A stretch of DNA of 37,615 bases. Origin: a bacterium (GTDB lineage Bacteria > Bacillota_I > Bacilli_A > RF39 > UBA660). The DNA lies in assembly GCA_030524925.1 (NCBI GenBank), contig JAUNFS010000008.1, positions 1 to 37,615 of the forward strand, given 5' to 3'. The position numbers and the translations under genes are program-made. The notes beneath the pieces were generated by a model, which was not told the origin of the DNA, did no database searches, and saw only the letters and a program-made list of their open reading frames with translations. Positions 12,517 through 37,519 of the stretch are shown here, piece by piece (the stretch's first letter is position 1; each line of letters opens with the position of its first letter).

Positions 12517-12566
12517 ATTTCACCTGTTATTTTGTGGGATTTTATTTTTTACCTTATTTTCTCGTT

Positions 12567-12594
12567 TTGTCCCTCAAAAGGTTTTTCGGGACAA
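12567..12594. repeat. Near-perfect hairpin downstream of the variable-protein gene
   Basis: TTGTCCC and GGGACAA form a perfect 7-bp stem, with AAAA/TTTT able to extend it internally. Neither strand has a T-run after the stem, so it is not a normal terminator. It lies about 50 bp past the stop codon of the gene with the pyrimidine-ending codon tract. Hairpins just downstream of the variable repeat are known in DGRs. Confidence 0.7.
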
Positions 12595-12643
12595 GAGACG
12601 TCAAACGATTTAACAGTACCACTATTTTTTTTACTCAACCAAA

Positions 12644-14656
12644 CTACTCTACAACATAAGGGCTTGTTCTTGTCCCTTTTCCAGATGCAATCGGTACTGT
12701 TGACTTAAGTGATAGAGAAGGCCGCCCACCGCCGTCGTAGTAAACATCGCCGCCGTCAAGGACGCTGTCGTTGCCATCAACAACCCAAACGATAGCGCCG
12801 AAGCCACTAAAGTCGAACGGAGACAAAGCCCACCACCATGTGTTCTCGGTATTTTTTAATAAATAATAACTAAAATTAACATTTCCACCACCTGCATATA
12901 CTATTTCATCTGCAGTAAGTAATCCGACCTTTTTATCTAAATCTCCATTACCGTTTATTTTATCATTTACAGTATATTTAGAAAGTTTACCACCAAGATT
13001 ATCATTTGGACATATTAATGATGGGCTATCACCTAACGGTATAACAGCTTCTGCATCAATTATTCTTTGTGTAGTACCATAATAATTTACATTTAATCCA
13101 TATCCATAATTTGTTCCAAGCGTCGATCCAAATGGATTAAATGATGTATCATTTACTGTACTTTTATCATTACACCATATTGTATCAGCTATATAACTAT
13201 CATAATTAGCTATGTTATTATCATACCATTCTTCAAGATACTTTAATATCGTACTTTTATTGATATTTGCATGAGCATTAGCATATGATGCTGAAGCAGT
13301 CCACGTGCCTCTAGCACTGGTACAAGCATTTTGATTAGCGGATGTTCCATTGGAGCATCCAACATTACCATACATTAATCCAACAAATGCATTATCGCCA
13401 TAAGCATAATTAAATTTGCTTTCACCAATGATTGCCGCATCACCACTATCATTAGCTTCTGCACATGGATTAGTATTTCCCTCTGTATTATTATTGAAAA
13501 GTGCTAACTTTATTGAACCATCACCAGTTACTCTCACTATTCGCCAGCATTTATTAGCAAATTCTACATAATTGTTTTCTACTGCTCCTCTAAAATAATA
13601 ACTCGTACCATAATCATCGGCAGTACTTGCCATAACTGCCTCAGTCTCTTCAGGGAATGTTTTCATTCCACCAGATATTTTACTATATGTAAATCTATCT
13701 GCACTAGTTTCTCTTATCAAAAGAAGTTGTTTCTTATTTGTGGTTTCAAGAAGTTCATCAGTAGTTGATTTTACATCAGAGTAATCATACGCCGAACTAA
13801 CCATATACTTTCCTTTTAATGTGCTCAATCCTTCACTATATTTTACCTTCTTTGGATTTTCAATTGTATATGTTCCATCTGCATTTACTTTATATGTATC
13901 ACCGTATGTATAATACGCATTAGCATTAAATACAAATGATGGAAAGGTATCGTTTATACTATAACTTGTCGCAGCTCCAGGTGGCGTTAATGTTTCTCTT
14001 AATTTATTATCTCTTCTTATTGCTGCAAGTAGTGTTCCGTCTGCTGCTTCGTTCCAGCCATTAGGTGTTGCTGGGTCTTTGATTGCTACTGTTGCTACTA
14101 CTATTTTGCCTTCCCATTTTTTGTTTAAGCCTTGTTCTATATTTGTATCAGCATCTAACCATATTCTTAAGTCGTAAGTAAATTCTTGTTTAGGTCCCAT
14201 TTTTATCTCTAGTAGTTTGTAACCTTTTCTAGAGTTATCTAAATCTACTAGTTCTTGATTTCCTAGGTGCATATTGCTTTGTGTTAAAACATCACTTTTT
14301 GATAAATTTACTTTTACATAATCATCTTTTAAATATGTTGTACTTATTTGAGTGCGGTATTCACTATCTATTGTAATTGTTGCTTTTACGTAACCAGTAC
14401 AGTTGTTTTTGATAGTAAATGTGTATGGAGTTCCTTTAATACCTTCTTCATCAGTTACTGGGTAAACGTCTGTTAGAGCTATTTTTGATGTTTGCTCAGT
14501 TAGTGTTATACTAAAGCAAGTTCTTGATGCTAAGCTGTTGTTATCTGATTGAGATAAAACTAGTCTAAAATAAGCATAAGATACTCCTATTATACAGATT
14601 ACTGTTATTAGTAATGTTACATAGATTTTGATTTTTTTATCGTTATTATTTTCCAT
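12644..14656 (-). CDS. Secreted C-type-lectin-fold-like protein, putative DGR target
   Basis: The N-terminus has a short basic start and a membrane segment ending in GVSYAYF, like the signal sequences of TasA/SipW-type secreted proteins. A beta-rich domain follows (about 30-200). From about residue 340 the protein shares a long C-terminal domain with the two proteins at 33959-37519 (YFRGAVENNYVEFANKCWRI, ADTIWCND, GKLSKYTVND, KVGLLTADE). Its end (WWWALSPF ... GRPSLSLKS ... SPYVVE) is the layout of FGE/C-type-lectin-like variable domains. Residues 614-643 are encoded by 29 of 30 NNY codons. It probably binds a ligand outside the cell; the ligand is unknown. AGGGTG before the ATG supports the start. 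Confidence 0.8.
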   Translation of the reverse strand: MENNNDKKIKIYVTLLITVICIIGVSYAYFRLVLSQSDNNSLASRTCFSITLTEQTSKIALTDVYPVTDEEGIKGTPYTFTIKNNCTGYVKATITIDSEYRTQISTTYLKDDYVKVNLSKSDVLTQSNMHLGNQELVDLDNSRKGYKLLEIKMGPKQEFTYDLRIWLDADTNIEQGLNKKWEGKIVVATVAIKDPATPNGWNEAADGTLLAAIRRDNKLRETLTPPGAATSYSINDTFPSFVFNANAYYTYGDTYKVNADGTYTIENPKKVKYSEGLSTLKGKYMVSSAYDYSDVKSTTDELLETTNKKQLLLIRETSADRFTYSKISGGMKTFPEETEAVMASTADDYGTSYYFRGAVENNYVEFANKCWRIVRVTGDGSIKLALFNNNTEGNTNPCAEANDSGDAAIIGESKFNYAYGDNAFVGLMYGNVGCSNGTSANQNACTSARGTWTASASYANAHANINKSTILKYLEEWYDNNIANYDSYIADTIWCNDKSTVNDTSFNPFGSTLGTNYGYGLNVNYYGTTQRIIDAEAVIPLGDSPSLICPNDNLGGKLSKYTVNDKINGNGDLDKKVGLLTADEIVYAGGGNVNFSYYLLKNTENTWWWALSPFDFSGFGAIVWVVDGNDSVLDGGDVYYDGGGRPSLSLKSTVPIASGKGTRTSPYVVE
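12728..12817 (-). other. Candidate DGR variable region (VR)
   Basis: These 30 codons (residues 614-643 of the preceding gene) end in C or T in 29 cases, TGG being the only exception, and 18 end in C. GC is 50 of 90 bases, against an AT-rich background. All 29 can be reached from AAC or AAT by changing the first two bases, which is the pattern left by adenine-specific mutagenic retrohoming. The matching stretch of the 33959-35734 gene does not show this. No template repeat or reverse transcriptase was found in the window. Confidence 0.65.
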
Positions 14657-33931: not shown

Positions 33932-33963
33932 AAAAAAACGTGAATAAAACTAGTCTATTCACG
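33932..33963 (-). terminator. Terminator of the tandem paralogue operon
   Basis: CGTGAATA pairs with TATTCACG (8 bp, 9-nt loop), followed by seven Ts on the minus strand. The 5' arm includes part of the stop codon of the 33959-35734 gene. Confidence 0.85.
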
Positions 33964-35734
33964 AAACTATTTTGTATGGACTATTGGCAGTGCCAGCACC
34001 TGATGAAATAGTAACACTAGAGTTAAGCGATATTGCGGGTCTAATACCTTTGTCATCAGTAACACTTACTGGATATAAATAAGTATTCCCAAAACTCCCA
34101 AGAACAAGAGCCCCTGCTGGAAGATCTGGTGTGGCATTAGTTAGATATAAAATCGGAGACAACGCCATCCAACCATCAGATGTAGCATTTTGATTCAAAT
34201 AATGATATGATGAACTATTAAGTGCTAGACCGCCAGCGAAAGTAACTTCTTCCATAGTAAGTAACCCTATTTTACCGTAACCATTTAATGCGCCATTACC
34301 ATACACTGTATCACTTACTGTAAACTTGGATAACTTTCCATTACTACCATCTACACATGTAAAATCCAGTTCTTCTGTGTATAATAAATTTGACACTGTA
34401 TTATAATAATTTGTATTGTCCCCATAACCAAAGTTAGTTTCAACAGAAAGATTTAATGGGTCGAATCCCGAATTAGAAACTACACCTTTATTATTACACC
34501 ATATTGTATCTGCAAGCTGAGTATCATTAAAATCAGATTGCTTAGAAAGTACATTCGTATACCATTTATTTAAATTCGTTAATATTGTACTTGGATTAGT
34601 GTTGGCATGGGTCGCAGCATAAGTGCTTGAATTTGGTGTTCCATACATAAATCCGATGTAGGCATTATCATTATTATTATCGTTAAATTTTGATAAATAT
34701 GTATTACCAGTATATCTAGCAAATGCTAAATTATTGCCTGTTACATTACAAGGAGTATTACTTGCCGGTGTATTATTACTATCTGTTAATCCATTATAAT
34801 TATATAAGACTAATTTAATTGAACCATCACCAGTAATGTGCACTATTCGCCAGCACATATTGGCATACTCTACATAATTATTTTCTACAGCTCCTCTAAA
34901 ATAATATGAGGTTCCATAGTCATCATTAGTTGATGCTAATACAGCTTCAGTCTCTGCACTACTTGTTGTTCCTGGCACTGTAAGTGGTTCACTTACTACA
35001 TTATCTCTTTTGATAGCTCCCAGTATCGTATCGCCACTGGCACTATACCAATTATTTGGTGCGGCTATTGTGGTATCCTCTTCTATCTCATCAGTTGTTA
35101 TCTCAATCTTTGCCCCAAATATCTTATTCTTATCAGTATCTTGTGATATATGATTGTCAGGAAAATAGATATTGAATGTGTATGTATGAACGACATTTTC
35201 GCCTGGCATAAAATATCCACTACCAAGGATAGTTCCAGTTGTATTTGCTCCTGTTGGTATATCTTGCCAAGCACGTATATCTACTACTTTTCCATTATCA
35301 CTGTCTTCTTTACTTCCTATTAAAGTATATTTTAGTGCTCCACTAGAAAACTGATTTTGTGGTATTACTAACTTTATATTATATGGCATCTTCATATTCT
35401 TTGATGCATCAGTAGTATTAGTTCCTGTTAATGTAAATGTTTTAGTTCCAACTGGAGTATACTCACTTTGATTACAATAATATGCTCCAGTTTGTTTAGT
35501 ACACTCATTTTTTGCTGGTGTTGGCTGTACATTTTCTGTAATTTGCACACTATTAGTATTAGCAAACTTTATCTTTAACTGACCTGCTCCTACTTTTAAA
35601 GTTGCCTCAGTTTCTCCCTGACTTATTCCGGCTGTAAAAAAAGCATAAGTTCCACCTATTACAGCTATAAGTGAAGTTGCTAGTAACATTATTAGGTATG
35701 CCATTTTATTGTTGTTTGTTTCTATTGGATTCAT
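33959..35734 (-). CDS. Secreted SipW/TasA-like N-terminus with FGE/lectin-like C-terminus (paralogue 1)
   Basis: The N-terminus (KMAYLIMLLATSLIAVIGGTYAFFTA) is a membrane segment with the TYAFFTA end seen in SipW-cleaved TasA/camelysin-type proteins. Residues 30-225 are almost identical to the next gene. The C-terminal domain (about 265-591) shares YFRGAVENNYVEYANMCWRI, ADTIWCNN, GKLSKFTVSD and GLLTMEEVTFAGG with both relatives and ends in WMALSPI ... GIRPAISLNSS ... SPYKIVS. In the variable-like stretch only 24 of 37 codons end in C or T, so there is no sign of recent DGR mutation. It follows the paralogue by 24 bp and ends at a strong terminator. The function is unknown, probably extracellular binding. 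Confidence 0.75.
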   Translation of the reverse strand: MNPIETNNNKMAYLIMLLATSLIAVIGGTYAFFTAGISQGETEATLKVGAGQLKIKFANTNSVQITENVQPTPAKNECTKQTGAYYCNQSEYTPVGTKTFTLTGTNTTDASKNMKMPYNIKLVIPQNQFSSGALKYTLIGSKEDSDNGKVVDIRAWQDIPTGANTTGTILGSGYFMPGENVVHTYTFNIYFPDNHISQDTDKNKIFGAKIEITTDEIEEDTTIAAPNNWYSASGDTILGAIKRDNVVSEPLTVPGTTSSAETEAVLASTNDDYGTSYYFRGAVENNYVEYANMCWRIVHITGDGSIKLVLYNYNGLTDSNNTPASNTPCNVTGNNLAFARYTGNTYLSKFNDNNNDNAYIGFMYGTPNSSTYAATHANTNPSTILTNLNKWYTNVLSKQSDFNDTQLADTIWCNNKGVVSNSGFDPLNLSVETNFGYGDNTNYYNTVSNLLYTEELDFTCVDGSNGKLSKFTVSDTVYGNGALNGYGKIGLLTMEEVTFAGGLALNSSSYHYLNQNATSDGWMALSPILYLTNATPDLPAGALVLGSFGNTYLYPVSVTDDKGIRPAISLNSSVTISSGAGTANSPYKIVS

Positions 35735-35758: not shown

Positions 35759-37519
35759 TTACGATTGTACCTTATATGGGTCGGTTGCTGTACCTGTGCC
35801 TGTTACTTTGGTAGAAGATACTAGTGATAAAGCCGGACGTAACCCTAACGCAATGTTAACATCACCACGACTAACAAATCCTACACCAGAAACATCCCAG
35901 ACAGATGGTACACCACTGAAACAAAGAGGAGACATAGTCCACCACCAATTTGAATTAGCATTTTGCCTTAGATAATATGATGAGTTTGTCGTTTTATAAA
36001 CTACACCAGCAAAGGCCATTTCGTCTGCCGTTAGTAGTCCTATTTTTGCATAGCCACTTAATGCTCCATTTCCGTACTCTGTATCACTTACTGTAAACTT
36101 AGATAACTTTCCTCCATTATTATCATTTGGACATATTAGACTTGGTCCTGTTCCACCAGCTTTCCAAGATGAGGCCTGTACTAATCTTTTAATAGCATTA
36201 TAATATGTTTGTTTATTTCCATAGCCGTAATTTGTTCCTAAGGGTAAATTGTCTGGATTAAATGTTGCATCAGTTACTGCGCCTTTATCATTACACCATA
36301 TTGTATCTGCTAATTGACTACTACTAAAGCCTGGTTGTTTTGAAAGGACATTTGTATACCATTTATTTAGATTAATTAATATTGTGCTAGCATTTATATT
36401 AGTATGTGAAGATGTATAGTTATTTGAGTCAGCTGTTCCATACATGAATCCTACATAAGCATTATCTGTATAATTTATATTAAATTTTGTGGTGTAACTA
36501 TCTGCTTCATACCTTGCTAAAGCTATATTGTCACCTTTTACGCTACACGGTATATTACTGCTTGGTGTCTGATTAGTACTAGTTAAACCATTATAATTAT
36601 ATAAAACTAATTTAATTGAACCATCTCCTGTTATTCTTACAATACGCCAGCACATATTAGCATATTCAACAAAGTTATTGTTAACAGCTCCTCTAAAATA
36701 ATACGACGTACCGTAATCGTCTTCTGTACTAGCAAGAACTGCTTCGGTATCGGATGAAATTTCAGAGCCAGGTTCTGTAATTGTTTTACTTAATGTATTA
36801 TTACTCTTTATCGCTTCTAACAATGTTCCGCCACTTGCACTATACCAGCCTTTTGGTATAGAGTCTTTTATTTCATCATTTGTTACTTCTATTAGGCCTC
36901 CAAATATTTTATTCTTATCTGCATCTTGTGATATATGATTATCTGGAAAGTAGATATTTAATGTATATGTGTGAACTACATTTTCTCCTGGCATAAAATA
37001 TCCACTGCCTAAGACAGTTCCAGTTGTATTTGATCCAGTTGGTATATCTTGCCAAGTATCTATATTTACTACTTTTCCGTTGTCGTTTGCTTCTTTACTT
37101 CCAACTAAAGTATATTTTAATGCTCCACTTGAAAATTGATTTTGTGGTATTATTAACTTTATATTATATAGCATCTTCATGTTTTTTGAGGCATCTGTGG
37201 TATTAGTTCCAGTTAATGTAAATGTTTTTACTCCAACGGGTTCGTACTCACTTTGATTACAGTAATATGCACCTGTTTGTTTAGTACATTCATTTTTAGC
37301 TGGAGTTGGTTGTACGTTTTCTGTAATTTGAATACTATTGGTATTAGTAAACTTTATCTTTAATTGCCCAGCACCTACTTTTAAAGTTGCTTCGGTTTCA
37401 CCTTGACTTATTCCCGCAGTAAAAAAAGCATAGGTTCCTCCTATTACTGCAATAAGTAGGCTTGCAAGTAACATTATTAGGTATGCTATTTTATTGTTGT
37501 TTGCTTCCACTATGATCAT
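35759..37519 (-). CDS. Secreted SipW/TasA-like N-terminus with FGE/lectin-like C-terminus (paralogue 2)
   Basis: This has the same layout as paralogue 1: a membrane/signal segment ending GGTYAFFTA, a near-identical first 225 residues (GETEATLKVGAGQLKIKF) and a C-terminal domain (about 260-586) ending WWWTMSPL ... GLRPALSLVSS ... DPYKVQS. The variable-like part (residues 532-560) has 20 of 29 NNY codons, intermediate between the other two family members. It is the first gene of a two-gene operon, with a promoter at 37534-37562. Both genes have AGAAAGTAG rather than a good Shine-Dalgarno site before the ATG. The function is unknown. Confidence 0.75.
   Translation of the reverse strand: MIIVEANNNKIAYLIMLLASLLIAVIGGTYAFFTAGISQGETEATLKVGAGQLKIKFTNTNSIQITENVQPTPAKNECTKQTGAYYCNQSEYEPVGVKTFTLTGTNTTDASKNMKMLYNIKLIIPQNQFSSGALKYTLVGSKEANDNGKVVNIDTWQDIPTGSNTTGTVLGSGYFMPGENVVHTYTLNIYFPDNHISQDADKNKIFGGLIEVTNDEIKDSIPKGWYSASGGTLLEAIKSNNTLSKTITEPGSEISSDTEAVLASTEDDYGTSYYFRGAVNNNFVEYANMCWRIVRITGDGSIKLVLYNYNGLTSTNQTPSSNIPCSVKGDNIALARYEADSYTTKFNINYTDNAYVGFMYGTADSNNYTSSHTNINASTILINLNKWYTNVLSKQPGFSSSQLADTIWCNDKGAVTDATFNPDNLPLGTNYGYGNKQTYYNAIKRLVQASSWKAGGTGPSLICPNDNNGGKLSKFTVSDTEYGNGALSGYAKIGLLTADEMAFAGVVYKTTNSSYYLRQNANSNWWWTMSPLCFSGVPSVWDVSGVGFVSRGDVNIALGLRPALSLVSSTKVTGTGTATDPYKVQS

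Follow-up and report, generated by a model that had tools for sequence, protein, structure and literature searches.

A single-template diversity-generating retroelement and its dispersed target genes in an uncultivated lineage of Bacilli

The window, namely the whole stretch of DNA analysed, comprises positions 1 to 37,615 of contig JAUNFS010000008.1 in assembly GCA_030524925.1 (GTDB lineage Bacillota_I, Bacilli_A, RF39, UBA660). On its reverse strand, with clpP and whiA on either side, lies a gene (12644-14656) coding for a protein of 670 amino acids, which has an N-terminal hydrophobic segment and a putative DUF6273-like C-terminal domain that finishes with a variable region (VR) followed by an RPSLSL end. 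One tract of this gene (12728-12817, reverse strand) has an unusual codon composition: in the gene frame, 29 of 30 codons have a pyrimidine as third base, the exception being TGG, 18 end in C, and the GC content is 50 of 90 bases, against 29.8% for the window. This recount bears out the composition from which a sequence-only reading had suspected the work of a diversity-generating retroelement (DGR). Under the third-position frequencies of the window (C+T 0.517, C 0.123; 11,770 codons), the naive binomial probabilities, uncorrected for the choice of place, are 7e-8 for at least 29 of 30 codons ending in C or T and 8e-10 for at least 18 ending in C; across 10,842 runs of 30 codons in 32 genes of the window, the other genes reached no more than 25 pyrimidine-ending codons and no more than 14 with C as third base. 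The related gene at 33959, said by the same reading to show no such bias, indeed has 3 C-ending codons out of 49, and the gene at 35759 is likewise unbiased (3/42).

The VR region was used to search the window's own draft genome (metagenome-type, 905 kb, 38 contigs, 85% complete), which returned about a dozen significant places, most with 66-76% identity. The repeat with mismatches at adenines that had been anticipated was found at G000:C25:392-509; this template repeat (TR) matches the VR core (12718-12835, reverse strand) over 118 ungapped bases, and the two differ at 22 of 34 TR adenines and at 8 of 84 other bases (Fisher p = 2.7e-9). In the tract 12728-12817 the 22 changed adenines became G (13) or T (9) and 3 of 56 non-A bases changed; in the rest of the core, 5 of 28 non-A bases changed. 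The interval of the tract had been picked from the codon pattern alone, and every one of the 34 adenines in the TR core lies inside it.

The codons of the template explain how much of the earlier proposal on the origin of the tract can stand. That all 29 pyrimidine-ending codons are derivable from AAC or AAT is formally true, but it holds for any NNY codon; their descent from such codons was not upheld, since the template has 12 AAC and 2 AAT (14 of 30), the others being 5 GAC or GAT, 1 AGC and 10 codons without A. Nearly all the adenines occupy the first or second position of a pyrimidine-ending codon, so that no change of a TR adenine in the tract can create a stop codon; the capacity of the 34 sites is about 1e20 protein variants. 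The VR ends about 70 bases upstream of the stop codon, as it does in the other targets whose ends are complete, and in the TR itself CGTCCC is followed at once by TAA.

Contig C25 carries a cassette in the order TR, MutS-I-like gene, avd and DGR-type reverse transcriptase (RT), and thus the RT and avd genes that were expected beside the repeat are present downstream of it. As read over C25:1-9000, the contig starts with the cut 3′ end of a gene of the target family (C25:1-59), which adjoins the TR and whose own VR is off the contig. Downstream of the TR, after an AGGAGG-type site, a MutS-I-like ORF (C25:760-1116) matches MutS_I (PF01624) with 28.7 bits over a cut-off of 20.6; such MutS-I-like proteins (MSL, PF01624) are known DGR accessories (PMC10053308), so this gene is not a novelty of the cassette. 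Here the MutS domain I protein is encoded alone between TR and avd, and similar ORFs occur near related RTs in several loci of Clostridia and Bacilli. The following ORF (C25:1103-1459) is Avd-like, with weak or sub-cut-off matches in three libraries (among them NCBIfam Avd, 3e-6, below cut-off, and PHROG Avd, 1.8e-5) and no match in the PDB. The RT (C25:1447-2547), about 1 kb from the TR, is the only one above cut-off in an RT family search of the draft genome (match at C25:1666-2394); its assignment to the DGR kind relies on family matches (PF00078, 56 bits; PHROG RT, 4e-71), on the best PDB match (8ub7_A, E 1e-22), which we take to be the RT of BPP-1, and on the motifs IGNMTSQ and YMDD. Directly after the RT come a member of the target family without a TR-like end or a VR (C25:2551-4557), and one with a VR (C25:4570-5991; VR at C25:5791). 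A strict automatic search for TR/VR pairs within this stretch returned none; it admits up to 3 non-A mismatches per 60 bases, and the VR at C25:5791 exceeds this limit.

Ten further VRs match the same TR, on contigs C18 (two), C14 (two), C16, C7, C21, C25, C26 and C38, each at the 3′ end of a paralogous gene. The 11 VRs differ from the TR at 56-85% of the adenines and at 1-21% of the other bases; C18a departs from the present TR almost exclusively at adenines (19/34 A, 1/84 non-A; p = 8e-12), and the VR on C7 has 4 non-A mismatches out of 83. The sequences indicate at least 11 targets written by a single chromosomal DGR. Two more target-like tails open contigs C25 and C15, so that 11 is probably a lower limit. 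Contig ends fall at, or just past, the 3′ ends of VR-type genes at G000:C25:1, C15:1, C7:1 and C16:42852; with assembly breaks at such places, further targets may be missing.

Ten other paralogs, with non-A mismatches of 29-60%, are not close copies of the TR: C16a, C2, C25a, C28 (two), C37, C38b, C6 and the two genes of the window at 33959 and 35759. An excess of changes at adenines is absent in seven of them, including the gene at 33959-35734 (reverse strand), which serves as a negative control (18/34 A, 36/84 non-A, p = 0.21); it is present in the gene at 35759-37519 (reverse strand; 24/30 A, 30/82 non-A, p = 4e-5), in C38b (p = 0.008) and in one of the C28 genes (p = 0.02). These three may be old, decayed VRs or may share ancestry with the template. 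The paralog ends at G000:C28:1948-2088 (L170) and, inside the gene at 35759, at window positions 35822-35947 resemble the TR to an intermediate degree and have some A excess; they are possibly decayed VRs. Short tracts of skewed codons do occur, and an ordinary codon or composition bias of a surface-protein family, acting without any retroelement, could in principle have generated the tract 12728-12817; however, the finding of a TR, an RT, an Avd-like ORF and ten more A-biased VRs, and the lack of the pattern in some ten paralogs that share the end motif, make this explanation hardly credible, and the comparison of TR and VR together with the paralog controls rules it out.

The TR and the window VR are on different contigs of a draft, so their linkage depends on the bin, and a 38-contig assembly in which several VR contigs end at VR tails could have gained its RT contig from a related organism that was also in the sample. 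This is very improbable: eight contigs other than C25, among them C20, have VRs that match this TR, one VR nearly perfectly at non-A bases, C25 and the window contig have in common a tail of 137 bases with about 96% identity, and the RT contig, farther along, encodes ribosomal protein S10.

The reading that we prefer, with a probability of about 0.95, is that the tract is a VR and owes its sequence to mutagenic retrohoming from the TR on C25. The proposal that a DGR wrote it is supported by the A-specific differences between TR and VR, by the cassette, by the ten additional A-biased VRs and by the repeat pairs of related genomes described below; the TR/VR relation with its A bias, the multiple targets and the cassette are seen directly in the sequences, and they constitute strong evidence for a history of mutagenic copying. 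The mechanism would be that of BPP-1, by homology: TR RNA from C25 would be copied by the adjoining RT with Avd, probably with the MutS-I-like protein as a helper, bases opposite template adenines would be misread, and the cDNA would replace the homologous 3′ end in one of the target genes at other loci. One TR would serve in this way at least 11 paralogous genes, whose products are predicted, from their N-terminal hydrophobic segments, to be membrane-anchored or secreted, presumably displaying at the surface a diversified tip that would bind a ligand.

Retrohoming from the TR does not by itself settle when the window VR was last written. An alternative, to which we concede a little less than even chances, is that it is a fossil: the DGR once wrote the tract, and only fresher VRs, such as C18a and C7, are still rewritten. 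Indeed, fresher copies than the window VR exist, since eight of its non-A bases differ from the present TR, compared with one and four, respectively, in those two VRs, and four of these eight differences are among its last 13 bases; in C18a this 3′ end, where an IMH-like sequence common to TR and VR would be expected, matches near-exactly up to CGTCCCT. In BPP-1, retrohoming needs close identity at the 3′ end. Furthermore, TR position 455 is a G, while the VRs have there A (five), G (three), T, C and, in one case, a gap, which is the pattern expected if the TR formerly had an A; the window VR has A, and thus it probably predates the change, having been copied from an earlier version of the TR. 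On the other hand, the few non-A differences inside the tract (3/56) indicate that decay is slight, and BPP-1 retrohoming tolerates differences between the ends of TR and VR. The window VR may no longer be rewritten, even if the retroelement was its author.

The tail of the gene is also relevant to how the VR arrived. Window positions 12566-12702 (reverse strand), i.e. the gene tail and the adjacent downstream bases, correspond to G000:C25:1-137 without gaps and with 4 to 5 mismatches, and this match to the gene beside the TR continues beyond the stop codon (12644-12646); the gene body, instead, is nearest to a VR-less paralog on C16 (80%), which is not a close TR copy. The simplest reading of these similarities would be the transfer of a VR-bearing 3′ end into the window paralog, from a donor whose VR lies off the contig. 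Accordingly, the VR might have reached the window gene by gene conversion from another target and not by retrohoming there, a possibility that we take seriously but lean against, as the set of A-site changes in the window VR is unmatched by the other VRs of the genome; thus, if the VR was copied, it was rewritten later or its donor falls in an assembly gap. Writing from the C25 template is compatible with such a transfer, and gene conversion and retrohoming can both have happened. A broader scheme can be drawn as a two-step antigenic variation, in which gene conversion would spread VR-bearing 3′ ends and one chromosomal DGR would rewrite the copies in trans; it appears rather unlikely to us, and, if true, it would involve more than 20 surface-protein paralogs, with non-target genes being recruited and VRs of graded age recording past templates.

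As for the target domain, weak matches to DUF6273 were obtained for 8 of 22 family members, the window protein not being among them, and the gene at 35759 has a DUF6273 match below cut-off. A first structure model (445 aa, 11 sequences) was discarded because of its pLDDT of 34; the second had a pLDDT of 62 and a pTM of 0.71, and fold searches with it gave nothing significant, several of the weak viral matches being DUF6273 proteins. The C-type-lectin-like fold that the sequence-only reading had ascribed to this domain was not confirmed by these models and matches. A profile search of the PDB with the domain alignment returned nothing relevant, and the viral contigs searched for the target domain contained two distant loci only. 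Downstream of the VRs, no BPP-1-like hairpin kept across targets was found; a 7-bp inverted repeat is present in the window and C25 tails and absent from the others.

By the features tested, the element is a DGR, of a known kind and unusual in its number of targets; no record is claimed, the catalogues having been covered in part. It resembles BPP-1 in the RT (8ub7_A), in Avd, in the A-specific TR/VR differences and in having the VR at the target's 3′ end, but BPP-1 is phage-borne, with a single target in cis, and no conserved hairpin was found downstream of the VRs here. The DGR of Treponema denticola, in which one TR and one RT serve seven targets, is similarly cellular, uses one TR for several remote paralogous surface-protein genes and shows differences concentrated at adenines (PMC4891356); it belongs to a different phylum and has seven targets instead of at least 11, whereas the present cassette has a MutS-I-like gene besides avd and DUF6273-like targets. 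Thiohalocapsa PB-PSB1 is also cellular and has many targets, for some of which diversification in trans is the best explanation, but its 15 targets are distributed over nine DGR loci (PMC10907252), compared with one RT and one TR for at least 11 in this genome. The DUF6273 targets of gut phages (tentaclins, Faecalibacterium prophages) likewise have a DUF6273-like domain whose C-terminal end carries the VR (PMC10743442, PMC11792537); in our case the system is chromosomal, with ribosomal protein S10 encoded beside it and with clpP and whiA flanking the window target. Larger numbers of VR copies are listed for some DGRs, but the main example given has few A changes and 21 merged VRs in one gene (PMC6642488). 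A large metagenome survey states that remote targets are beyond its detection (PMC8144416), and therefore the target numbers of DGRs may be underestimated. The value of the present case lies in a DGR whose single template has at least 11 scattered targets within one small draft genome from uncultivated Bacilli; its VRs of differing age and the non-target paralogs alongside them form a natural series for following target recruitment and template drift.

RT matches at E <= 1e-10 were found in 69 of 145 genomes of the family; the weakest of these matches may be to RTs of other kinds, those of full length show about 40-51% identity, and further matches are to uncultured Bacilli and Candidatus Caccenecus. 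Among three congeners an RT match occurs in G147 only, which has the same order of VR, TR, MutS-I-like gene (45%), avd (61%) and RT (54%), with its own A-biased TR/VR pair in cis; the drafts of the other two, G145 (84% complete) and G146 (78%), gave no RT or TR match, and no orthologous VR was found in same-genus genomes. Both G145 and G146 carry target-family matches, which are many in G145. G140 and G082, from two other genera of the family, have A-biased repeat pairs beside RT and Avd. In the C25 stretch (L017:515-640), 3′ of the TR, a motif like GAAACAAGCATA-TTCC is kept in four related DGRs, those of G147, G140 and G082 included, and it is perhaps part of a template RNA spacer.
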